Assembly (NCBI GenBank): GCA_947626435.1
Contig: CANQSB010000002.1
Location: forward strand, 124,001-188,000
Length of the DNA: 64,000 nucleotides
Direction: 5' to 3'
DNA from: an uncultured Lachnospiraceae bacterium
GTDB taxonomy: Bacteria; Bacillota; Clostridia; Lachnospirales; Lachnospiraceae
In this document: one piece after another, positions 4,394 to 22,070 of the stretch
How the letters are laid out: each line of letters starts with the position of its first letter
Numbering within the stretch: the stretch's first letter is position 1
Notes under the pieces: generated by a model
Seen by the model: only the letters and a program-made list of their open reading frames with translations
What the model was told of the DNA's origin: nothing
Database searches by the model: none
Made by a program: the position numbers and the translations under genes

Positions 4394-5638
4394 TTGAATA
4401 TTAAAAAACGTTATATTTTATTTTTATATATATTTCTCGGCTTCGCTATAGGTTTGTTCTGTTGGGCGACATACGCGCATTACCAAAACGCCGTTCCCGA
4501 AAAAATCAGGATAAAGGCAGGCACAAGCGAGGAAATAAATTTAAAAGTTCCCGCTTCAGGAGTGATAAGCACAGACTCGGAAACAGTGCTTTCACTAAAC
4601 CAGCCCGTCACAATAGTGGCAGGCGAAAATATAAGCTCATACGAGCTGCAGCTCAAACTTTTCGGCGTGCTGCCCCTCAAAAATATAGACATAGAGGTAA
4701 TAGAAAACACATACCTCACCCCCGTAGGCAGACCCATCGGCATATATGTGAAAACGCAAGGCGTACTCGTCATAGACACAGGCAGCTTTGTAGGCGCGGA
4801 CGGCATAGAGCACGCCCCGTCGCAGTACAAACTCCAGTCAGGCGACTACCTTACGGCAATGGATGGCATCCCCATCACAGACAAGCGCCAAATACAACAG
4901 TATGTATCGGACAGCGGCGGAACAGAAATAATATTCCAAGTATCAAGAAACGATGCCGTCATAGAAGTCAAAGTCACTCCCGAGCCCGATGAAAACAATT
5001 CCTATAAAATAGGCACTTGGCTCCGCGACAGCGCCCAAGGCATAGGCACAATGACCTACATCGACTCGCAAAACCGCTTCGGCGCGTTAGGACATGGCAT
5101 AAACGACATAGACACAGGCGAACTCCTGCAATTAGGCAACGGACTCCTATATCATACAGACATAGTAGCAGTAAAACGAGGCGAAAAAGGCACACCCGGC
5201 GAACTGACAGGCGTTATAGAATATAAATCGGAACAAGTATCAGGCGTTATCATTGACAACACGGCAGAAGGCATATACGGCGTAGCCAACGCCAAACTAC
5301 TCTCCGAACTTTCCGAAGAAAACACTGCCCTCCCCGTAGCCCTAAAACAAGAAGTAACCACAGGCTACGCCCAAATACTATGCGCAATAGACGGCATACC
5401 GCACTACTACGACATAGAAATAACACACCTGAATATAGGCGAAGAAACCATAAACAGACAAATATCCCTAAGAGTCACAGACCCCGAACTCCTGGAAATG
5501 ACAGGCGGCATAGTCCAAGGCATGAGCGGCGCCCCCATAGTCCAAAACAACAAACTAATAGGCGCCGTCACCCACGTCCTAGTCCAAGACGCCACCAAAG
5601 GCTACGGCATATTCATAGAAGACATGCTGGAACATTAA
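4394..5638 (+). CDS. spoIVB: SpoIVB sporulation signalling serine protease
   Basis: Secreted forespore protease that triggers pro-sigma-K processing across the intermembrane space by cleaving SpoIVFA. The 414-residue product has an N-terminal membrane anchor (about residues 7-28), a PDZ-like domain (about 105-200, with the loop LQSGDYLTAMDGIPI) and a C-terminal S55 peptidase domain with the conserved His in ALGHGI, a TDP segment, and the nucleophile Ser in GMSGAPI. The start is TTG with AGAAGG about a dozen bases upstream, so the exact start is not firm. Codon use in the second half is strikingly rich in C-ending and CTA/GTA codons compared with the window as a whole. The presence of sigK four genes downstream fits a sporulation role. 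Confidence 0.92.
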   Translation: MNIKKRYILFLYIFLGFAIGLFCWATYAHYQNAVPEKIRIKAGTSEEINLKVPASGVISTDSETVLSLNQPVTIVAGENISSYELQLKLFGVLPLKNIDIEVIENTYLTPVGRPIGIYVKTQGVLVIDTGSFVGADGIEHAPSQYKLQSGDYLTAMDGIPITDKRQIQQYVSDSGGTEIIFQVSRNDAVIEVKVTPEPDENNSYKIGTWLRDSAQGIGTMTYIDSQNRFGALGHGINDIDTGELLQLGNGLLYHTDIVAVKRGEKGTPGELTGVIEYKSEQVSGVIIDNTAEGIYGVANAKLLSELSEENTALPVALKQEVTTGYAQILCAIDGIPHYYDIEITHLNIGEETINRQISLRVTDPELLEMTGGIVQGMSGAPIVQNNKLIGAVTHVLVQDATKGYGIFIEDMLEH

Positions 5639-5656
5639 TCATGCAAAGAAAAAGTA

Positions 5657-5822
5657 GCCGGAGCAGGGGAATATACCCCATGAAGACCCTTGGAAGGCGT
5701 CGGCACTTAGCAAAATAAGCTGTAAAAGCGTAGCTCCTTTTACAGCGTCATTGAGCTTAGTGTCCGCTACGCTTTCCACAGCGGGAGCGAGGTCTGAATG
5801 GGGTATATTCCCCTGCTCCGGC
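5657..5822. repeat. Structured dispersed repeat, copy A
   Basis: A 166-bp intergenic element between spoIVB and lepA. Its 25-base ends (5657-5681 and 5798-5822) are perfect inverted complements. Inside lie a 10-bp hairpin (5719-5728 with 5737-5746, loop CGTAGCTC) and an intermediate imperfect stem (around 5691-5712 with 5753-5777). Copy B at 20392-20558 has the same architecture and orientation, and the differences between copies are compensated in the stems. The element is either a small non-autonomous mobile element or a structured RNA. The minus strand is open in one frame in both copies, which I regard as incidental. Confidence 0.85.
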
Positions 5823-5888
5823 GGACGGACAGATATACTTTTTTCTACAAACAACAAATAATAACCCCAGGAAGGACTGATACCCAAT

Positions 5889-7703
5889 ATGTCACAAATC
5901 CCTCAAACCCACATCCGCAACTTCTGCATAGTAGCCCACATAGACCACGGCAAATCCACCCTAGCCGACCGAATTATAGAAAAAACCGGCCTCCTCACAA
6001 GCCGCGAAATGCAAGAACAAGTCCTAGACAACATGGACTTGGAACGCGAACGCGGCATCACAATAAAAGCCCAGGCAGTCCGCACAGTATACAAAGCCCA
6101 AGACGGCAACGAATACATCTTCAACCTAATAGACACCCCGGGCCATGTAGACTTCAACTACGAAGTAAGCCGCGCCCTAGCCGCCTGCGACGGCGCAATA
6201 CTCGTAGTCGATGCAGCTCAAGGCATAGAAGCCCAAACCCTCGCCAACGTCTACCTGGCCCTAGACCACGACCTGGACGTATTCCCCGTAATCAATAAAA
6301 TCGACCTCCCCAGTGCCCGCCCCGACTGGGTAAAAAACGAAATAGAAGACGTCATCGGTATAGAAGCGCAGGACGCTCCCCTCATATCGGCAAAAAACGG
6401 CGTAGGAATCGAAGAAGTGCTTGAAGCAATAGTACATAAAATCCCCGCCCCCGGCGGCAACCCGTCTAATCCACTCCAGGCCCTAATCTTTGACTCCGTT
6501 TACGATTCATACAAAGGCGTAATCGTATTCTGCCGCATTATGGAAGGCAGAGTGGCAAAGGGGACAAAGATAAAAATGCTTGCCACAGGCGCGACAGCGG
6601 AAGTCGTTGAAGTCGGCTATTTCGGCGCAGGGCAGTTAATCCCCTGCGAAGAACTCTCCGCAGGCATGGTAGGCTACCTTACAGCCTCCATAAAGAATGT
6701 AAAGGATACCACAGTAGGCGATACAGTTACGGATGCCGACAGACCATGCGCAAGTCCCCTGCCCGGATACAAAAAAGTACAGTCAATGGTATATTGCGGA
6801 CTATATCCCGCAGACGGCGCAAAATATCCTGACCTTAGAGATGCCCTGGAAAAACTCCAGCTAAACGACGCGTCATTATTCTATGAACCGGAAACCTCAG
6901 TAGCTCTTGGCTTTGGCTTTCGCTGCGGATTTTTAGGACTGCTTCACCTTGAAATCATACAGGAGCGCTTAGAAAGAGAATACAACCTTGACTTAGTCAC
7001 CACAGCTCCGGGTGTAGTCTATAGGGTTTACAAGACAAGCGGCGAAATGATAGAGCTTACGAATCCGTCCAATCTGCCCGACCCGTCGGAAATAGCATAT
7101 ATGGAGGAGCCGATAGTGAATGCCGAGATAATGGTGACGACAGAGTTTATCGGTTCCATAATGGAGCTTTGTCAGGAGCGGCGCGGCAGATATGTCAGCA
7201 TGGAGTACGTCGAGGAGACAAGGGCAGTCCTCAAATACGAACTTCCGCTAAATGAAATAATCTACGATTTCTTTGATGCGCTCAAATCCCGCTCGAGAGG
7301 CTACGCATCTTTTGACTACGACTTAAAAGGCTATGAAAAATCAGAGCTCGTCAAGCTCGACATCCTCATAAATAAGGAGGAAGTAGACGCGCTTTCATTT
7401 ATAGTGCATAAAGAATCCGCCTACGAGCGCGGCAGAAAAATGTGTGAAAAGCTAAAAGATGAAATACCACGACACCTGTTTGAGATACCGATTCAGGCGG
7501 CGGTAGGCGGCAAAGTCATAGCGCGCGAGACAGTAAAGGCAATGCGCAAGGATGTGCTCGCAAAGTGCTACGGCGGTGATATCACCCGCAAGAAAAAGCT
7601 TCTTGAAAAACAGAAAGAAGGCAAGAAGCGCATGCGCCAGATAGGAAACGTCGAGATACCGCAGAAGGCGTTTATGGCAGTCCTAAAGCTTGACAACGAA
7701 TAA
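5889..7703 (+). CDS. lepA: Elongation factor 4 (LepA) GTPase
   Basis: Ribosome-associated translational GTPase that back-translocates or remodels stalled ribosomes. The 604 residues match the family length. The G1 motif AHIDHGKST (about residues 16-24), G3 DTPGH (about 81-85) and G4 NKID (about 136-139) are intact, and the LepA-specific C-terminal domain ends in [15 protein letters not shown] followed by the basic tail. The start ATG follows AGGAAGG at a rather long spacing. hemW follows after about 100 bases, a common lepA-hemW arrangement in Firmicutes. The first 600 or so bases have an unusual A+C-rich coding strand, while the second half has ordinary codon use. Confidence 0.97.
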
Positions 7704-9997: not shown

Positions 9998-10060
9998 CTA
10001 TTCCTTTGATATTAATGGCAGTATCAGGAGTAGTAGATTGGAGATTGATATGAGAGAAGT
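9871..10060 (+). repeat. 190-bp direct repeat, copy 1 (immunity cassette boundary)
   Basis: Identical base for base to 11938-12127. It covers the YD-repeat remnant, the ribosome binding site GGAG, the start ATG and the first codons (Met-Arg-Glu-Val) of the downstream immunity gene. Identity stops abruptly inside the fourth codon, where the two immunity genes diverge completely. Confidence 0.97.
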
Positions 10061-10508
10061 GTTTAGTAATATAAGTAAATCATTGACAAGAGAAGATATA
10101 GAAACAATGGAATCAGAGTTAGGCATCACGTTACCAGATAGCTTTATTGATCATTATTTAGTTTATAATGGCGGGATTCCGTCTAAGCCATATTTTTATT
10201 CAGAAGAAGAAGATGTAGAAACGGAGATTCAGATATTTTCACCGATAAAATATGGTTTCAAGGATTTGGATTTAAGAACAGTTGAGCAAAAGTATGTTCT
10301 TTTCAAGGAAAAGTATAATGTGATGTGCCGTTATCTGCCTTTTGCAAATGACTATGGCTCAAATCAAATCTGTATAAATTTAGATAACGGAAAGGTATAT
10401 ATTGTATATATGGATATTGGCGAATTGGATCAAAAGTGCTTTCAGTTTCTTGCAAATGATTTTAGTGAATTTTTGAACGGATTGTCAGAGGAGAGTGTAG
10501 ACGATTAG
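10050..10508 (+). CDS. SUKH (SMI1/KNR4)-family orphan immunity protein
   Basis: A 152-residue acidic cytosolic protein. The pattern is SMI1/KNR4-like: an N-terminal helix (REDIETMESELGITLPDSF), a YLVYNGG turn, then LPFANDYGSNQICINL and a strand ending IVYMD, the usual SUKH order. SUKH proteins neutralise nuclease and other toxins of polymorphic (Rhs/WapA/LXG) systems. ATG 10050 is chosen because GGAG sits six bases before it; a TTG at 10038 is in frame but lacks such a site. No toxin gene is adjacent, so this is an orphan immunity gene next to toxin remnants. Confidence 0.72.
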   Translation: MREVFSNISKSLTREDIETMESELGITLPDSFIDHYLVYNGGIPSKPYFYSEEEDVETEIQIFSPIKYGFKDLDLRTVEQKYVLFKEKYNVMCRYLPFANDYGSNQICINLDNGKVYIVYMDIGELDQKCFQFLANDFSEFLNGLSEESVDD

Positions 10509-10530
10509 TCCTATGGCAGGATAACACAGG

Positions 10531-10614
10531 GCGCGGTACGGCTATAATGCCAGAAACAAAAGCATCCTAGTGCGTGACGGCGAGGGAGAAAATGTGTTGG
10601 GTGGTAATTTATGA
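10531..10614 (+). pseudogene. Second short Rhs-like remnant
   Basis: After the SUKH gene one frame reads ARYGYNARNKSILVRDGEG and ends at a stop at 10612. YGYNARNKSI resembles a YD-repeat unit. The fragment is only 27 codons long with no start, so it is at best a scrap of a toxin core. Confidence 0.3.
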
Positions 10615-10654
10615 GACATGCTGATAAACTTTGACGGTTTCCTTCAATTTATTC

Positions 10655-10684
10655 TTTACAACCCCACAACTATAACGGTATAAT
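10655..10684 (+). promoter_or_regulatory. Predicted sigma-A promoter for the nuclease-like gene
   Basis: TTTACA, 18 bases, TATAAT, located 37 bases before the next start codon. The -10 box matches consensus exactly. Confidence 0.6.
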
Positions 10685-10721
10685 AAACTTGACAAAACAA
10701 AATTCACCAAAGGAGCACTGA

Positions 10722-11699
10722 ATGGCAGAAAATAAAACAAAAGAAACAACCCCTAGGAAAAACGCAAACACCCATACCAAGCCCAGAAAACTGCAGTGGC
10801 ATCCCGCTTTCGGGGCAGCGCTTGAAATGGAGTTTATAAAGGAAAAAGACAGCCTTACCATCAAAAGGGAGCACTTGCTAAATATGAAGCCGTTGCAGGT
10901 AGATTGTCTTGTAGTAAAGAAAGTAAAGGGCATAGTCCTTGAAAATGAGATAGGAAAATTCTTTAAAGAACACAACATTATAGAATACAAATCAGCCAAA
11001 GCCGCGCTGTCAATAGACACAGTATCAAAGGTACAGGCATACGCCTATTTATACAAGGCATACGGAGGGAGCGTTGACAGAATAAGATTTGACGAGATAA
11101 CAGCCACCCTGATACGGGAGTCAAGACCAGAGGCGCTGTTCAGATATCTTGATAAAAACGGCTACAGGGTATCAAACCCATACGGCGGCATATACTACAT
11201 AGAAAGCGGCTTTAATATCCCCACCCAGATAATCGTGGGGAGCGAGCTGGACAGCAGAGAGCATGAATGGCTGCACCTGCTTTCAGGCAGGGTGACAAAG
11301 CAGGAGATGGCGCATGCCATAGAGTATTCCAGAAACACGGAAAGTCAGGAAGAAAGAAACCTGATAGATGCCATATTTGAAGTAAGCGTATCAGCAAATA
11401 AAGAGGTAGTCGAAGAACTGGTGAGAGGAGATGAGACTATGTGCCAGGCACTGATGGAGATAATGAAACCGAAGATTGATGAAATAGTGAATACGGCGGT
11501 ACTACAGGAACGCAGGAAGACCGTCGAACGCGTAGAGAAGGAAATAACCGAACGCGTAGAAAGGGAAACCGCCGAACGCACAATAAAGGCAGCAGTTAAA
11601 AGCCTGCGCCGTTTTAATGCCAGTGATGCAGACATTAAAACAGCACTGGTGGAGGATTACGGCATATCAGAGCAGGAGGCTCTCTTGTATTTGAAATAA
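10722..11699 (+). CDS. PD-(D/E)XK/Rpn-like putative nuclease
   Basis: A 325-residue soluble protein resembling a family common in Lachnospiraceae that is annotated as Rpn-like or PD-(D/E)XK transposase/nuclease-related. Supporting sequence: LENEIGKFFKEHNIIEYKS at about residues 68-87 (an E...EYK motif like a nuclease core), followed by a conserved-looking region around YAYLYKAYGG. The C-terminus is a charged helix built from 8-residue repeats (ERVEKEIT, ERVERETA) encoded by 24-bp tandem repeats at 11526-11573, then a short helical end (ISEQEALLYLK). The start ATG follows AAAGGAGC. It has its own promoter and terminator and lies between the two 190-bp repeats, so it may be cargo. Catalytic activity is not established. 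Confidence 0.55.
   Translation: MAENKTKETTPRKNANTHTKPRKLQWHPAFGAALEMEFIKEKDSLTIKREHLLNMKPLQVDCLVVKKVKGIVLENEIGKFFKEHNIIEYKSAKAALSIDTVSKVQAYAYLYKAYGGSVDRIRFDEITATLIRESRPEALFRYLDKNGYRVSNPYGGIYYIESGFNIPTQIIVGSELDSREHEWLHLLSGRVTKQEMAHAIEYSRNTESQEERNLIDAIFEVSVSANKEVVEELVRGDETMCQALMEIMKPKIDEIVNTAVLQERRKTVERVEKEITERVERETAERTIKAAVKSLRRFNASDADIKTALVEDYGISEQEALLYLK
11526..11573 (+). repeat. Two tandem 24-bp units inside the nuclease-like gene
   Basis: GAACGCGTAGA-initiated units start at 11526 and 11550, and a degenerate third begins at 11574. They encode Glu/Arg-rich 8-residue helical repeats; unit number may vary between strains. Confidence 0.7.
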
Positions 11700-11713
11700 A
11701 ATAAAGTATATTC

Positions 11714-11757
11714 AAAAAGAAGCCAACACAATTTTACTATGTGTCTGGCTTCTTTTT
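11714..11757. terminator. Bidirectional terminator after the nuclease-like gene
   Basis: GAAGCCA (11719-11725) pairs with TGGCTTC (11746-11752) and ACACA with TGTGT inside, flanked by A5 and T5. It lies 15 bases after the stop codon. Confidence 0.75.
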
Positions 11758-11809
11758 ATTGCGTGTCCAGCATAGGCAAAGTCCGACTGGTGAAAGACCG
11801 TAACACGCC

Positions 11810-12064
11810 TTGGCAGCGAAAAGCGCCAATGAGAGTTTAGAATGCCTTTTGCCCCATAGCATGAGTTTGACATCAGAAATGGGGTTGCCTCTGCGGTTTA
11901 GATGTAAGGAATTTCAACAGATAAAATGCAGCTGCGGCCTGCGCACAAAATGCAAAAAAAGGAAGATAAAGGTAGATAAAAATGGAAAAGAGATATATAC
12001 TTATAATGTAAAGAACCAGCTGACTGGCAGGAAGTCTGAAAATTTACAAATAATATTATTTTGA
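11810..12064 (+). pseudogene. Rhs/YD-repeat remnant, copy 2
   Basis: An 84-codon open stretch. The first 40 or so codons (to about 11937) are unrelated to anything I recognise and Cys-rich; the rest is the same YD-repeat segment (IYTYNVKNQLTG) as copy 1, inside the 190-bp direct repeat. No credible start or ribosome binding site is seen. Together with the terminator at 11714-11757 it fills the 417-base gap before the second immunity gene; bases 11758-11809 hold nothing recognisable. Confidence 0.45.
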
Positions 12065-12127
12065 CTATTCCTTTGATATTAATGGCAGTATCAGGAGTAG
12101 TAGATTGGAGATTGATATGAGAGAAGT
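11938..12127 (+). repeat. 190-bp direct repeat, copy 2 (immunity cassette boundary)
   Basis: Exact copy of 9871-10060, same orientation, 2067 bp apart. It supplies the ribosome binding site, start codon and first residues of the Imm22-like gene. Homologous recombination between the copies would delete the SUKH gene and the nuclease-like gene. Confidence 0.97.
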
Positions 12128-12539
12128 TGATTTTGTGGATGCTACATATAACAATGACGATTATATGTCAGTATTTATAGGGGTATGTGAATCAGAAAGT
12201 TTGCTTGAAGAATATATGGAATTAGATTATGATTTATTAGATGACTACTGTATAGGATTTGAATTAGGGGTTGATTTTGGAATCAATACATATGATGAGG
12301 ACTTTATGGTCAGAGTGGTACATGATAAAAGTTCCACTGATATTGATGAAGTCTTTAAGGATGCAGAGGTGTTTGACCTTTCGATATTAAAAAAACAGTA
12401 TCCCAATGGATTTGATCAGCCGTATAATGCGGTAGTGGTGATTGGGCGAATGAAGTATGAGGGAGATATTACAGAAGTCCATAATGAGAAATTCGGATAT
12501 TTCAAGTTTTTAGGTATCTTTAATGAAGAATCTGCCTAG
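12117..12539 (+). CDS. Imm22-like orphan immunity protein
   Basis: A 140-residue, very acidic cytosolic protein. The pattern VFIGVCESESLLEEYMELDY, then FELGVDFGINTYDEDF and a late YNAVVVIGRMKYEGD / YFKFLGIF, matches the Imm22 (DUF4284) layout of a short strand, an acidic helix, a YDEDF motif and C-terminal strands. Imm22 proteins are predicted to protect against nuclease-type polymorphic toxins. The start ATG 12117 has GGAG six bases upstream, inside the direct repeat. As with the SUKH gene, no toxin gene is attached. The TAG stop is followed in the same frame by another coding remnant. Confidence 0.6.
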   Translation: MREVDFVDATYNNDDYMSVFIGVCESESLLEEYMELDYDLLDDYCIGFELGVDFGINTYDEDFMVRVVHDKSSTDIDEVFKDAEVFDLSILKKQYPNGFDQPYNAVVVIGRMKYEGDITEVHNEKFGYFKFLGIFNEESA

Positions 12540-12844: not shown

Positions 12845-14059
12845 TCAATTCCACTCGCTGGCGGTCAGAAAATCCCGAATATTCCTATGCTTTATTCCAT
12901 TTCGGCTCATGTCAATCTCGTCCATCGTAACGACATATTTAGGAAAATTGTCCCGTATCAGGTCGTAAACGCCAAATTCCCGCATAACAGTATCTTCCGA
13001 GGCAAGCAGATAGGCAACTTGAACATAGAGCTTTTCATTACGCTTATGGCAGACAAAATCAATTTCCCTGTTCCCATATCTGCCTACTGTTACCTTGTAT
13101 CCACGCCTAAGAAGCTCCATGTAAACAATATTTTCAAGAATTAGGTTGATGTCACGCATATTCCCGCCAAACACAGCCTCTCTGATGCCGTGGTCGGCAA
13201 TATAGTATTTTTCATTTGATGCGAGTATCTGCTTACCCTGCAAATCCTCCCTTTTGACCTGATAAAGAAAGTATGCGTCGCAGCAGTATTTGATATAGTT
13301 CAACACAGTCTCTGCCGCTACAGTACGCTGCTCGCTTTTTAGAAACTTTACAAGTGATGTTGCGGAGAAGGCAGTCCCGACATTTGCCATTGCATAGGCA
13401 ATTATCCGTTCCAGCAGATCGATATCGCGTACCTTGTTCCGCTTGACAATATCCTTGAGCTGGACAGAATTAAAAACATCTGTCAGGTACTGTTGGGACG
13501 GTTCCTCGGCATAGTGAAGGTTTGCAAGATACGGCATTCCGCCGGACATCAGATACTTTTGAAAACATTGCTGCACCGTAGCGTCTGAGTCGACCGTATG
13601 ATAAAGCTTCAAAAACTCAGAGAAGGAAAACGGATAAATCACAAATTCCACATACCGCCCGCCGAGGTACGTCGCAAGCTCCCCCGACAGGAGTTTTGCG
13701 TTTGAGCCAGTGATGTAAATATCACAGTCGAGGGAGATGCGCAGAGAATTGACACACTTCTCCCAGCCCTCAACCTCCTGAATTTCATCAAAAAACAGAT
13801 ATACTTTCCCTTCAATGTCTTTTGCCCTTTTCAGGATTTCTTCGTGAAGCGTATTTGCAGTAAGAATACGTGAGTTCCTCATATCCTCAAAATTAATTGA
13901 GATAAAATGTCCAGCCGAGATGCCTGATTCAGTCAGTTCCTCCTTTATCAGCTCCAGCATGACAGATTTTCCGCTTCGCCTTATTCCAGTCATGACTTTG
14001 ATAAGGTCATTCCCGATAAATGGACGGATACGGCTCATATAGGTTTCACGTTTAATCAT
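12845..14059 (-). CDS. AAA ATPase with DUF4143 domain
   Basis: A 404-residue protein of the AAA_14 plus DUF4143 family, widespread and often multicopy in gut anaerobes; no biochemical function is established, and it is sometimes grouped with defence or toxin-antitoxin-like accessory genes. The Walker A motif GIRRSGKS (about residues 25-32) and Walker B YLFFDEIQEV (about 100) lie in the N-terminal half, and the DUF4143 region with restriction-nuclease-like residues (REIDFVCHKRNEKLYVQV) lies in the C-terminal third. The start at 14059 is chosen because AAGGGGAT precedes it at good spacing; an upstream ATG at 14101 lacks one. It is the only long minus-strand gene of the island. Confidence 0.88.
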   Translation of the reverse strand: MIKRETYMSRIRPFIGNDLIKVMTGIRRSGKSVMLELIKEELTESGISAGHFISINFEDMRNSRILTANTLHEEILKRAKDIEGKVYLFFDEIQEVEGWEKCVNSLRISLDCDIYITGSNAKLLSGELATYLGGRYVEFVIYPFSFSEFLKLYHTVDSDATVQQCFQKYLMSGGMPYLANLHYAEEPSQQYLTDVFNSVQLKDIVKRNKVRDIDLLERIIAYAMANVGTAFSATSLVKFLKSEQRTVAAETVLNYIKYCCDAYFLYQVKREDLQGKQILASNEKYYIADHGIREAVFGGNMRDINLILENIVYMELLRRGYKVTVGRYGNREIDFVCHKRNEKLYVQVAYLLASEDTVMREFGVYDLIRDNFPKYVVTMDEIDMSRNGIKHRNIRDFLTASEWN

Positions 14060-14168
14060 GAAAATCATCCCCTTTTTGTAAGTATTTTTAGTATATGCCA
14101 AATATAGTGGAAAATCAAGGCAATTATCAGAATTTTATAATATATAACTTATAAATTTAAATCTTTAA

Positions 14169-19466: not shown

Positions 19467-20255
19467 ATGAGCAGTGTACAGCTATTAGATAAGACAAGAA
19501 AAATAGGAAAGCTTTTACACAACAACAATTCAAGCAAAGTAGTATTCAATGACATATGCACAGTCATACGCGACATAGTCAGCTCCAATGTCTTGGTTAT
19601 TAGTAAAAAAGGCAAAGTATTGGGCGTAGGATATTGCGAAGGCGTAGATGTGCTCAGGGAACTCGTAAACAACACAGTAGGCGGTTTTATAGACCCGGTG
19701 CTGAACGAGCGGCTCTTAGGCGTGCTTTCCACCAAAGAAAACGTCAACTTGGAGACACTCGGCTTTGAAAGCTCCGACATACGCAAATTCCAAGCCGTCA
19801 TCACTCCCATAGAGATAGCAGGCGAGCGCCTTGGCACGCTCTTTATATACAAATGCGGCGAACAGTACGATATAGACGACATCATCCTCTGCGAATACGG
19901 CGTGACAGTCGTAGGTCTCGAGATGCTCAGATCAGTCAGCGAAGAAAGCGCGGAAGAAAGTCGCAAAGTGGCAGTAGTAAAATCCGCCATATCCACCCTC
20001 TCATTTTCAGAAATGGAGGCAATCACCCACATATTCGATGAGCTGAACGGTACGGAAGGCATCCTCGTAGCCAGCAAAATAGCCGACCGCGTAGGCATCA
20101 CCCGCAGCGTCATAGTCAACGCCCTCCGCAAATTCGAAAGCGCAGGCGTGATAGAATCCCGCTCATCAGGCATGAAAGGCACCTACATCAAAGTCCTAAA
20201 CGACGTAGTCTTCGAAGAAGTAGAAGCCCTAAAACACCAACTAAGCAAATCCTAG
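19467..20255 (+). CDS. codY: Global nutritional regulator CodY
   Basis: GTP- and branched-chain-amino-acid-responsive repressor. The 262 residues hold an N-terminal GAF domain (about 1-155) and the C-terminal winged helix-turn-helix with the family signature ASKIADRVGITRSVIVNALR and the wing SRSSGMKGTYIKVLN. The ATG at 19467 is preferred over 19440 because TTGGAGG sits at the right distance. It lies directly upstream of the flagellar operon, as in Bacillus, where CodY also represses fla/che; that control here is inference. The last 200 bases share the A+C-rich codon bias seen around the structured repeat. Confidence 0.96.
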   Translation: MSSVQLLDKTRKIGKLLHNNNSSKVVFNDICTVIRDIVSSNVLVISKKGKVLGVGYCEGVDVLRELVNNTVGGFIDPVLNERLLGVLSTKENVNLETLGFESSDIRKFQAVITPIEIAGERLGTLFIYKCGEQYDIDDIILCEYGVTVVGLEMLRSVSEESAEESRKVAVVKSAISTLSFSEMEAITHIFDELNGTEGILVASKIADRVGITRSVIVNALRKFESAGVIESRSSGMKGTYIKVLNDVVFEEVEALKHQLSKS

Positions 20256-20391
20256 AAAAAGTTATTAGTAATCAGCCCAATCCTAAATTTAACAAATTAA
20301 AAAACAGACCAACAAAAATAACAAAAGGAAATCAAAACATAAAAAGTTTCAAATAAATAAAAACAACAACACAAGTTTATTACAACAACCG

Positions 20392-20558
20392 GCCCGAACA
20401 GGGAAATATATCTCATGAAGACCCTTGGGAAGCGTCGGCGCTTAGCGAAATAAGCTGCAAAAGCGTAGCTCCTTTTGCAGCGCAATTGAGCTTAGTGTCC
20501 GCTACGCTTCCCACCGAGCGCAAGCGGGTCTGAATGAGATATATTTCCCTGTTCGGGC
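20392..20558. repeat. Structured dispersed repeat, copy B
   Basis: A 167-bp element between codY and flgB, same orientation as copy A (5657-5822). The 25-base ends (20392-20416 and 20534-20558) are perfect inverted complements; the inner hairpin is 20454-20463 with 20472-20481, and the loop CGTAGCTC is identical to that of copy A. Five differences in the terminal arm and one in the inner hairpin are each matched by a change in the pairing partner. It occupies a third of the 495-base gap here; the rest is A-rich sequence and the flgB promoter. Confidence 0.85.
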
Positions 20559-20633
20559 GTCCTCCATCAAAACCCCCAAAGTCTATCTTAAAATTCTCCC
20601 AAAACCCCCTCATAAACAAAACAAAAATAATAC

Positions 20634-20661
20634 TTGAAATATTTCAAAAATAATCTATAAT
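20634..20661 (+). promoter_or_regulatory. Predicted fla/che operon promoter with palindromic operator
   Basis: TTGAAA, 16 bases, TATAAT, 90 bases before flgB. The -35 box is the left half of a perfect 14-base palindrome, TTGAAATATTTCAA (20634-20647), a candidate repressor site. No c-di-GMP (GEMM) riboswitch was recognised in the leader. Confidence 0.6.
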
Positions 20662-20750
20662 AAAATAAGGACAAAGTGTATATTTATGTTTAAAAACCAA
20701 AAAATATTAATTTCACATCAAATTTCACACTAAAATTAGGAGGATTGCAT

Positions 20751-21143
20751 ATGTTAGGAGCAACAAACGTATTTGACTATATCAACGTCATGAGCAAGAC
20801 AATGGATGCCGCAGTCATGCGCCAAGAGCTAATTAACAATAACCTTGCCAACGTCAATACCCCGGACTATAAACGCAAAGACATACGCTTTGAGACCGAG
20901 CTAAAGAACGCATTCGTCCGCGCAAACGGCGACAGCACGGATGCCAAAGTCAAAGACATCGAGCTTGAATCACTCACCCCGAAGACCTACATAGACTATT
21001 CCGAGCTTTCATACAGATACGACGGCAACAACGTGGACATAGACACCGAAAACGCAATATCCGCCGAAAACCAAATCAAGTACAACGCACTTGTGGATTT
21101 GGTAAATATGAATTTTTCAATGCTCCAGACAGTAATGAAGTAA
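20751..21143 (+). CDS. flgB: Flagellar proximal rod protein FlgB
   Basis: Inner rod component and first gene of the operon. It has 130 residues, the family length. The N-terminal rod signature RQELINNNLANVNTPDYKRKDIRFE and the C-terminal heptad region (IKYNALVDLVNMNFSMLQTV) form the D0 coiled coil. ATG 20751 lies seven bases after AGGAGG; the TTG two codons upstream is not needed. flgC follows after 73 bases. Confidence 0.95.
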   Translation: MLGATNVFDYINVMSKTMDAAVMRQELINNNLANVNTPDYKRKDIRFETELKNAFVRANGDSTDAKVKDIELESLTPKTYIDYSELSYRYDGNNVDIDTENAISAENQIKYNALVDLVNMNFSMLQTVMK

Positions 21144-21216
21144 AAATAAAATAAATCAAAAAACAGCAACAATACAATATAACCCAATAAGACAAACAAA
21201 AGGACGGAGGTAAATT

Positions 21217-21711
21217 ATGGGACTATTTACAGCCTTTGACATAAGCGCATCAGGTATGACCGCGGAGAGATACCGCATGGACATATCCTCTCAAAACCTT
21301 GCAAACGCCAACACCACAAGGACGGAAGACGGCGGCGGATATGTCAGGAAGGTAGTGACCTTTGAAGAAAAAACCAACATAAAAAACAGGAATTTTTCTC
21401 ATATGCTCGACACCGCGTTCAGCAACCTCTCAGGCAGACCGCTCGGACAGCTTAACTCAGCCAAGCTTTCAAGTCCGGGACAAGGCGTAAAGATAGGCGG
21501 ACTGTACGAGGACACATGGACGGAAGAAACCATGGCATATGACCCCGAGCATCCTGACGCTGACGAAAACGGCTACGTGCATTATTCAAACGTAAATGTT
21601 ATTACAGAGATGACAAACATGATAGACGCATCACGCGGCTATGATGCCAACCAGGCAGCCTTTGAGGCATCAAAGTCAATGATGCTCAAAGGACTTGAAA
21701 TGAATAAATAA
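21217..21711 (+). CDS. flgC: Flagellar proximal rod protein FlgC
   Basis: Rod component of 164 residues. The N-terminal flg_bb_rod motif (ISASGMTAERYRMDISSQNL, ANANT) and the C-terminal YVHYSNVNVITEMTNMIDAS / AFEASKSMM segments are complete. GGACGGAGG precedes the ATG. It assembles with FlgB, FlgF/G and FliE between the MS ring and hook. Confidence 0.96.
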   Translation: MGLFTAFDISASGMTAERYRMDISSQNLANANTTRTEDGGGYVRKVVTFEEKTNIKNRNFSHMLDTAFSNLSGRPLGQLNSAKLSSPGQGVKIGGLYEDTWTEETMAYDPEHPDADENGYVHYSNVNVITEMTNMIDASRGYDANQAAFEASKSMMLKGLEMNK

Positions 21712-21725
21712 ACAGGAGGCTCATA

Positions 21726-22070
21726 ATGACTATCACACCCGCAAACGATATAAAAAGCTTATATAACGTAAGCTCTGATGCAATCAAGAATACACTGAAT
21801 AAAACCACAGACACGGACACAGCCAAGACCACGGGCGATTCAAGCCTCTTTGGCTCCATTTTCAACGCGGCGGTAAGCAACATAAACGACACAAATGTTT
21901 TACTGTCAGATATGGAGAACGAAGAATTGAAATGGTCCATGGGCATCACGGAAAACCCTCACGACTTGACCGTAGCGGTAGGCAAGGCGCAGACAGCCTT
22001 CACCTATACGACGGCGCTCAGAGATAAGCTTCTTGAAGCATACCGCGAGATTATGCAGATACAGATATAA
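21726..22070 (+). CDS. fliE: Flagellar hook-basal body protein FliE
   Basis: MS ring-rod adaptor, 114 residues. The C-terminal signature (PHDLTVAVGKAQTAFTYTTA, LRDKLLEAYREIMQIQI) is diagnostic. The ribosome binding site AGGAGG is eight bases from the ATG, and the gene starts 14 bases after flgC. Confidence 0.95.
   Translation: MTITPANDIKSLYNVSSDAIKNTLNKTTDTDTAKTTGDSSLFGSIFNAAVSNINDTNVLLSDMENEELKWSMGITENPHDLTVAVGKAQTAFTYTTALRDKLLEAYREIMQIQI

Follow-up and report, generated by a model that had tools for sequence, protein, structure and literature searches.

The 64,000-nucleotide stretch analysed here (the window), from an uncultured Lachnospiraceae bacterium, carries two copies, A and B, of a hairpin element lying between genes. 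They represent a family of dispersed structured elements that do not code for protein and for which we know of no earlier description; the searches made found it only in Lachnospiraceae. Our preferred explanation, to which we assign a probability of about two in three, is that the family is non-autonomous and mobile, that its arms are kept complementary by selection on the fold together with template switching, and that a strand-specific process acts at its loci in one clade. The initial annotation had offered a structured RNA or a hairpin-dependent mobile element, and this pair of alternatives is supported; we infer the mobility itself, as well as the choice between action as RNA and as a DNA hairpin.

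The + strand of the element (~130-190 nt) folds as one long hairpin with a junction. Its outer stem P1 (~25 bp) varies in sequence and is kept mainly as a near-perfect duplex. Inside P1 lies a 2x2 tandem G-A loop, in whose place some copies have a UAAG/CGCA module or pair fully (by eye), followed by a short stem P2 and the core stem P3, in which we read by eye the recurring motifs CGUCGG..CUUAG.GA and CGAG.UUAGU..CCG.UACG. The fold is completed by an inner hairpin, variable in length among copies, and a side hairpin with a GNRA loop, which is present in 23 of 25 cross-genus copies (the exceptions read AAAA and AGGA). According to PMC8794818, DNA and RNA both form stable GNRA loops, so the loop alone is no proof of an RNA. 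By eye, the core sequence is recognisably conserved across genera. In the window, the two copies and their parts are placed as follows:

5657-5822, + strand: copy A, whole element, between a SpoIVB-type peptidase gene (end 5638) and lepA (start 5889), genes by Pfam
5657-5681, + strand: copy A, 5' arm of P1, 25 nt, variable among copies, perfect complement of 5798-5822
5682-5683, + strand: copy A, GA of the tandem G-A internal loop, partner 5796-5797 (alignment)
5684-5687, + strand: copy A, 5' strand of P2 (AGAC), partner 5792-5795
5691-5716, + strand: copy A, 5' side of P3, including a U-U mismatch and the second tandem G-A position
5719-5746, + strand: copy A, inner 10-bp hairpin, with the 8-nt loop CGTAGCTC at 5729-5736
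5750-5778, + strand: copy A, 3' side of P3
5781-5788, + strand: copy A, side hairpin, GNRA loop GGGA at 5783-5786 (alignment)
5798-5822, + strand: copy A, 3' arm of P1
20392-20558, + strand: copy B, whole element, between codY (end 20255) and a flagellar rod protein gene (open reading frame, ORF, from 20745), genes by Pfam
20392-20416, + strand: copy B, 5' arm of P1
20518-20525, + strand: copy B, side hairpin, GNRA loop GCAA at 20520-20523 (alignment)
20534-20558, + strand: copy B, 3' arm of P1

Reading the sequences bore out every detail that the initial annotation had described. Copies A and B agree in strand, order and loops, and their 25-base arms are perfect complements within each copy. 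Between the copies, the arms differ at exactly 5660, 5663, 5669, 5676 and 5678, each difference being compensated at the pairing position. A sixth compensated pair (T-A at 5723-5742, C-G at 20458-20477 by alignment) lies in the inner hairpin, whose loop CGTAGCTC is identical in both. Folded as RNA with a few flanking bases, A and B reach -106.7 and -106.6 kcal/mol (z-scores -10.7 and -13.4), and none of 200 shuffles of either copy is as stable, which excludes chance. Departures from the usual architecture occur as well: in locus L015 (contig C20 of the window's own genome, G000), a full copy is followed directly, close to the end of the contig, by two further tandem repeats of the 3' third of the element (1692-1755 and 1778-1841), and two sister-species copies (L115 6925-7151; L163 4120-4341) are ~55-60 bp longer than usual, still scoring as full-length.

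The initial annotation had proposed a covariance-model search combined with an analysis of covariation. Run in outline, this returned many homologues, and 43 of 64 pairs are changed on both sides in 39 copies from G000. The MAFFT alignment of these copies was made without fitting to the structure, and 99.1% of its 2490 cells pair; sliding the partner by 1 to 3 columns leaves only 34-46%. The alignment has 256 double-change cells, and shuffling gives 56 on average. Across genera, in a model-fitted alignment, 96.5% of 1385 cells pair, 58 of 64 pairs are doubly changed, and 408 double-change cells stand against 102 shuffled; alignments A2 to A6, on which the cross-genus, same-locus and mismatch-type counts rest, are all fitted in this way and lean to the model structure. 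None of 500 shuffles reaches the own-genome or the cross-genus count, and the own-genome alignment is unmatched on all five measures.

The mismatches that do occur are informative about the strand. In the 25 cross-genus copies, mismatch cells comprise 43 G-U, 15 A-C and 33 others. Within the inner stems, G-U exceeds A-C both in own copies (22 vs 10) and across genera (23 vs 7), indicating that the fold of the + strand is selected in the core. In P1 of the own copies, the two types are equally frequent (4 and 4), and nearly so in G052 (4 and 5 in the 22 rows left after removing 9 of 31 as reverse-strand or duplicate), so P1 alone carries no sign of strand-specific selection. Comparing the same locus between species (39 comparisons, not independent because 11 own copies are reused in two or more) yielded 104 double Watson-Crick changes, 54 one-sided changes and 2 others. 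Among the 33 comparisons with fewer than 7 double changes, P1 shows 13 transition-type and 10 transversion-type double changes, and the inner stems show 15 and 3. In locus L030, the 5' inner arm is a near-exact complement of its own 3' arm instead of carrying the family sequence.

A plain DNA palindrome, with arms rendered complementary by replication template switching and no selection on the fold, would account for the rewritten arm of L030, for the 10 of 23 transversion-type double changes in P1 and for the even G-U and A-C counts there in the own genome, and template switching can create and maintain stems (PMC8794818). Arm correction would, however, erase the tandem G-A loops, the U-U mismatch and the side hairpin, which persist in most copies, and the excess of G-U in the inner stems and the core sequence conserved across genera also speak against a plain palindrome, which we consider quite improbable. 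The initial annotation had read the compensation as the footprint of selection on a fold. That reading stands in view of the many homologues and the strong covariation, except that it need not cover all of the compensation, since DNA template switching also yields patterns such as those of L030 and of the transversion-type changes in P1; template-switch correction contributes as well in the outer stem. The data therefore suggest two processes: the core is under selection for the + strand fold, and P1 is additionally subject to copying from arm to arm. They show in part that the arms are kept complementary by this fold selection combined with template switching that corrects one arm from its partner.

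The initial annotation had counted two dispersed elements; the dispersal holds, and the number was too low. In G000 (3.70 Mb, 98 contigs), blastn gave 46 matches, 40 of which we took as distinct copies. The first covariance model, built from 39 of these (L025 was omitted from their alignment, A1, as the same element as L023), gave 72 matches in G000, both-strand matches included. The covariance-model listing adds 8 places beyond the 40, for at least 48 in all. Over 39 relatives besides G000, blastn found one further carrier. With the first model, 6 of the 38 genus genomes, G000 among them, were carriers; one of the six (G004) is probably false: we judged its match, L062, not to be a family member by fold and sequence. 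Order-wide, 45 of 392 genomes carried matches, all within Lachnospiraceae, the sequences being viewed for some matches only. A second model was built from 25 diverse copies after removal of the loci of 4 reverse-strand rows from the cross-genus alignment; it excludes L062, L093, L097, L098, L100, L101, L105, L152 and L153, and L061 missed the alignment cut-off. In a search limited to the class, it found 11 carriers among 391 genomes, again only in Lachnospiraceae. Both the order-wide and the class-wide searches were run with stricter filters. Fuller scoring of 19 chosen genomes with the second model, in which counts may include the reverse strand of one place, gave 52 matches in G000, 42 in each of G017, G051 and G410, 40 in G317, 24 in G052, 22 in G337, 19 in G323, 11 in G347, 9 in G373, 6 in G110, 4 in each of G361 and G341, 1 in G283 and none in the other five. 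Loci L144, L152 and L153, from three ruminant-type metagenome-assembled genomes, hold elements with equal ends and score and are probably one locus in related genomes.

An exact pattern of the core matched 87 stretches, labelled as Lachnospiraceae assemblies (mostly Lapin, that is rabbit, with a few labelled goat rectum or water buffalo or with unexplained labels), and had no match in viral contigs. The initial annotation had recognised no named RNA family, and Rfam 15 likewise gave no match in the window at the gathering score. In 7 further homologue-bearing loci, searched at E up to 1, nothing rose above the cut-off on an element; the sole match on one was to the microRNA family MIR1858 (E 0.18, 30.5 bits against a cut-off of 137). 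The same searches placed a TwoAYGGAY RNA (L087 1726-1891) beside one homologue and a tmRNA gene (L166 4648-4986) beside another.

All 40 own copies lie between larger ORFs, in gene orientations ++ (16), -- (11), +- (7) and -+ (5), with one undetermined. Fourteen of them overlap a short ORF of 71-153 aa, which we take to be spurious. The flanks show a weak sequence preference over ~12 nt on either side, which varies among subfamilies. Directly ahead of the hairpin, C, T and A are the commonest bases at the three positions (25, 23 and 37 of 39 copies), and the eight bases after the stem are T in 0, 8, 1, 0, 21, 5, 22 and 23 of the 39. Without a T run, the element does not qualify as an intrinsic terminator.

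The copies could instead be functional genes of a trans- or cis-acting structured RNA family (small RNAs or mRNA elements) and not mobile DNA. The strong conservation of the core, its covariation, the GNRA-type loop and the preference for G-U would all fit such a family, as would the single match in G283. We nevertheless regard it as unlikely, given up to ~50 copies per genome, their inconsistent orientation to genes, the lack of a U-tract after the hairpin and the patchy occurrence within the genus. In addition, the base tallies of the 40-bp flanks, inspected without a promoter scan, held no promoter-like block.

Mobility of the family is suggested by several comparisons. L023 and L025 hold the same element 1.1 kb apart in differing flanks, and the L025 site is without an element in G051. 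Among the 22 rows from G052, the mean share of the commonest base is 96% for columns of the core vs 81% for those of the outer stem, as if these copies had been amplified recently. From near-identical cores in different surroundings in G052, together with the matching pair L023 and L025, we infer spread. The codY site also lacks an element in G051. Upstream of lepA in the same genome (L195), the counterpart of copy A is reduced to the two outer arms with a tiny loop, which is a natural internal deletion. Many copies are common to several species at the same locus. In 20 stretches from other genera, 6 of 8 close pairs are divergent; own copies include only one such pair within 400 bp, and the spacers between close inverted pairs bear no likeness to one another by eye.

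Its 25-bp terminal inverted repeats, short length and intergenic position would be in keeping with a conventional miniature inverted-repeat transposable element (MITE), in which the terminal repeats serve as ends for a DDE transposase. Those terminal pairs are, however, doubly changed at 23 of 25 positions in at least one of the 39 own copies (8 of them in only 1 or 2 copies) and at 25 of 25 across genera, a variability hardly compatible with a sequence-reading transposase. We saw no target-site duplications in the element flanks inspected by eye, and a long conserved core is not a MITE hallmark. The family thus fails as a MITE on terminal-repeat conservation and on target duplication (the latter by eye), and we hold this origin to be very improbable. 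Two candidate partners were rejected as well: the Y1 transposase (PF01797) has 0 matches in G000 and G052 and is present in element-free G010 and G012, and reverse transcriptase has 0 matches in G051 and G052.

In four species of one genus, the elements sit in a strand-composition footprint, in which G and T are scarce on the + strand of the element out to ~1 kb in both directions. GC skew in the window is positive nearly throughout and negative around A and B:

4501-6900, no strand assigned: footprint around copy A, GC skew -0.03 to -0.22 against a mostly positive background, G and T low on the element strand
20101-21900, no strand assigned: footprint around copy B, GC skew -0.01 to -0.27

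The only other longer negative-skew stretch in the window, 12901-14100, coincides with a minus-strand ORF, and five isolated bins are slightly negative (-0.007 to -0.034). Around the 39 own copies, G on the element strand rises on both sides from 10% at 20-60 bp to 20-21% at 600-1000 bp. At sister-genome loci, the skew shifts by about -0.25 in positive and negative backgrounds alike. The shift is negative for 28 of 31 elements in G017, 24 of 27 in G051 and 15 of 16 in G052, and 73 element-free gaps show a mean shift of 0.013 (sd 0.138); the pooled element sets for skew and for third positions include orthologues, so their counts are not independent. Replication direction is rejected as the cause, the sign of the shift being equal in positive (23 elements) and negative (36) backgrounds, with 10 of 69 not classed. 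Transcription direction is rejected too, as the sign follows element orientation in all gene-orientation classes.

The footprint reaches into neighbouring coding sequence, where we surveyed third codon positions in 401 ORFs around 108 elements. In antisense genes 3' of the element, G and T make up 4% and 8% within 200 bp and 22-23% and 19-20% beyond 2.2 kb. The same trend is present in all four classes of gene orientation and side, more weakly where the gene runs along the element (near, G 14-16% and T 17-19%; far, G 27-28% and T 22-25%). Beside A and B, 91-92% of third positions are A or C, as compared to 33-52% in relatives without an element there (absence by blastn; L195, L197, L225 and L226 were also model-searched, with no match). 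In the nearest fifth of lepA, third positions read 36/55/5/4 (A/C/G/T) in G000, and A plus C amounts to 33-49% in 27 genus relatives other than G017 and G051. The last quarter of codY, nearest the element, reads 37/55/6/1 in G000 and 40/57/1/1 in G017; without a copy, G051 has 22/43/22/12 there, and 12 other tabulated relatives have 37-52% A plus C. Beside the arm-only remnant at lepA in G051, the footprint persists in weaker form (39/44/10/7).

As causality is not seen directly, elements might conceivably have been inserted into regions that were already A/C-skewed. The composition gradient nevertheless climbs toward the element at two loci, the same genes are less biased in element-free relatives, and the 73 element-free gaps show no such shift; we consider this scenario largely refuted.

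Polarised third-position changes at 12 loci provide a view of the process itself. Comparing sites within 500 bp of the element with those at 1000-1500 bp, A to G and C to T are reduced to ratios of 0.43 and 0.47 (Fisher 0.0018 and 0.00004, with denominators recomputed from rounded rates), and G to A (1.13) and T to C (0.86) show no detectable change. Selection rather than mutation could keep the element strand A/C-rich, for example by leaving flanking single strands unstructured. This would agree with the halving of A to G and C to T next to unchanged G to A and T to C, and with the lower total of third-position change. It would require third-position selection over ~1 kb at dozens of loci and in both gene orientations, and there is little footprint in other genera; we therefore view it as rather unlikely.

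In our preferred explanation, the elements would spread as non-autonomous mobile elements read through the folded + strand, as single-stranded DNA or as RNA. For the factor recognising that fold, the partners tested yielded no candidate. In the clade of four species, a strand-specific process at the loci would deplete G and T on the element strand for ~1 kb on both sides. The mechanism we favour for this is that the hairpin is recurrently nicked or gapped in a strand-specific manner and that the ensuing repair or resynthesis favours one strand. A nick in the + strand would direct mismatch repair to that strand, on both sides, over ~1 kb and regardless of replication and transcription. The suppressed A to G and C to T changes suggest stronger repair of + strand errors, or selection against them, more than extra mutation. 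All 7 genomes examined for MutL have it, whether or not they carry elements, so it does not discriminate the mismatch-repair version. Changes from G to A and from T to C on the + strand correspond to C to T and A to G on its complement; in mitochondrial genomes this pattern is ascribed to single-strandedness, and the strand asymmetry there is attributed to time spent single-stranded. Tentatively, and with odds well below even, the element may be a programmed strand-specific discontinuity, at which a structure-reading nuclease or transposase repeatedly nicks or gaps the + strand and leaves local, mitochondria-like asymmetries. The same nick or gap processing would explain the arm-to-arm rewriting and the collapse of the copy A counterpart to bare arms in G051.

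Several observations weigh against our preferred explanation. We found no transposase or other partner and, by eye, no target-site duplication. The element is present at 27 of 28 sister-species loci matching own-copy flanks, which renders present activity uncertain, the figure being inflated because the loci were chosen for holding elements. P1 in the own genome has no excess of G-U over A-C. At all sites in the nearest 150 bp, 13 G to A or T to C changes stand against 30 in reverse, and the suppression of reverse changes at third positions differs from the prediction of a pure "more mutation" model. In other genera, local skew is absent or weak (29 elements pooled: -0.13 and -0.11 within 300 bp vs about -0.05 farther), so the footprint is not intrinsic to the element; copies there that lack a footprint may simply be younger.

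Among known systems, the family comes nearest by behaviour to bcr1-type repeats, REP/REPIN and MRSC-type motifs, an analogy of behaviour that does not by itself show membership in REP or bcr1. The bcr1 repeats fold, with compensatory changes. As described in PMC6542083, bcr1-bcr18 of the Bacillus cereus group are dispersed repeats of 100-400 bp, mostly chromosomal and with features of mobile elements, bcr1 averaging 39 per strain. Size, copy number and the Gram-positive host group are thus similar. The present family differs in its host family, in its variable yet near-perfect outer duplex and in its kb-scale footprint, which is not among the bcr1 features described there; the comparison is by description, not sequence, and no TTTAT motif was noticed in the flanks, by eye only. 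REP elements are 20-40 bp palindromes with a GTAG or CGTC tag and RAYT transposases (PMC3116915, PMC3733652). They resemble our family, together with BIMEs and REPINs, as intergenic hairpins with lineage-specific amplification; inverted doublets, the replicating unit of REPINs, are common among the close pairs from other genera and occur once within 400 bp among own copies. An element of 130-190 nt with a conserved core, and no Y1 match in G000 and G052, is different; REP/REPIN membership fails on length, tag and Y1 (RAYT) transposase. According to PMC11109978, MRSC-65-2 has >20,000 members in diverse phyla, a UYCCGG repeat and often dozens of copies per genome, and is a mobile or repeat candidate. 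It shares with our family a long stem, strong covariation and dozens of copies per genome, and is set apart, by that description, by the branched core and the single bacterial family (in a search within the class) found here.

Two further comparisons are more distant. ERIC and NEMIS are intergenic imperfect palindromes of ~100-170 bp, similar in kind and size to the present element and phylogenetically remote, compared by description only. In vertebrate mitochondria, one strand is A/C-rich and the other G/T-rich, in a gradient tied to replication of the whole organelle genome. The footprint resembles this in its A/C and G/T strands and its gradient; it differs in being local, ~1 kb each side of dispersed elements, and unrelated to background skew. 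We encountered no bacterial repeat with such a composition footprint in the literature searched, and no description of this family there, including the sections of PMC8040213 and PMC11109978 available to us, among whose supplementary-table candidates it could be.

Apart from the elements, the window contains a low-GC, strongly skewed island at 10038-12539 that encodes a SUKH (SMI1/KNR4) protein and an Immunity protein 22 family protein (Pfam) and is perhaps an immunity-gene cluster.

In summary, Rfam 15 lacks a structured family that reaches dozens of copies per genome in some members of a major family of gut bacteria. Its outer stem and core help to separate selection from template switching within one molecule. 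If our reading is true, the footprint legibly documents, at defined chromosomal sites, a DNA process that is strand-specific and does not depend on background skew or gene direction. Should the element be a programmed discontinuity, the chromosome would be dotted with local strand asymmetries.
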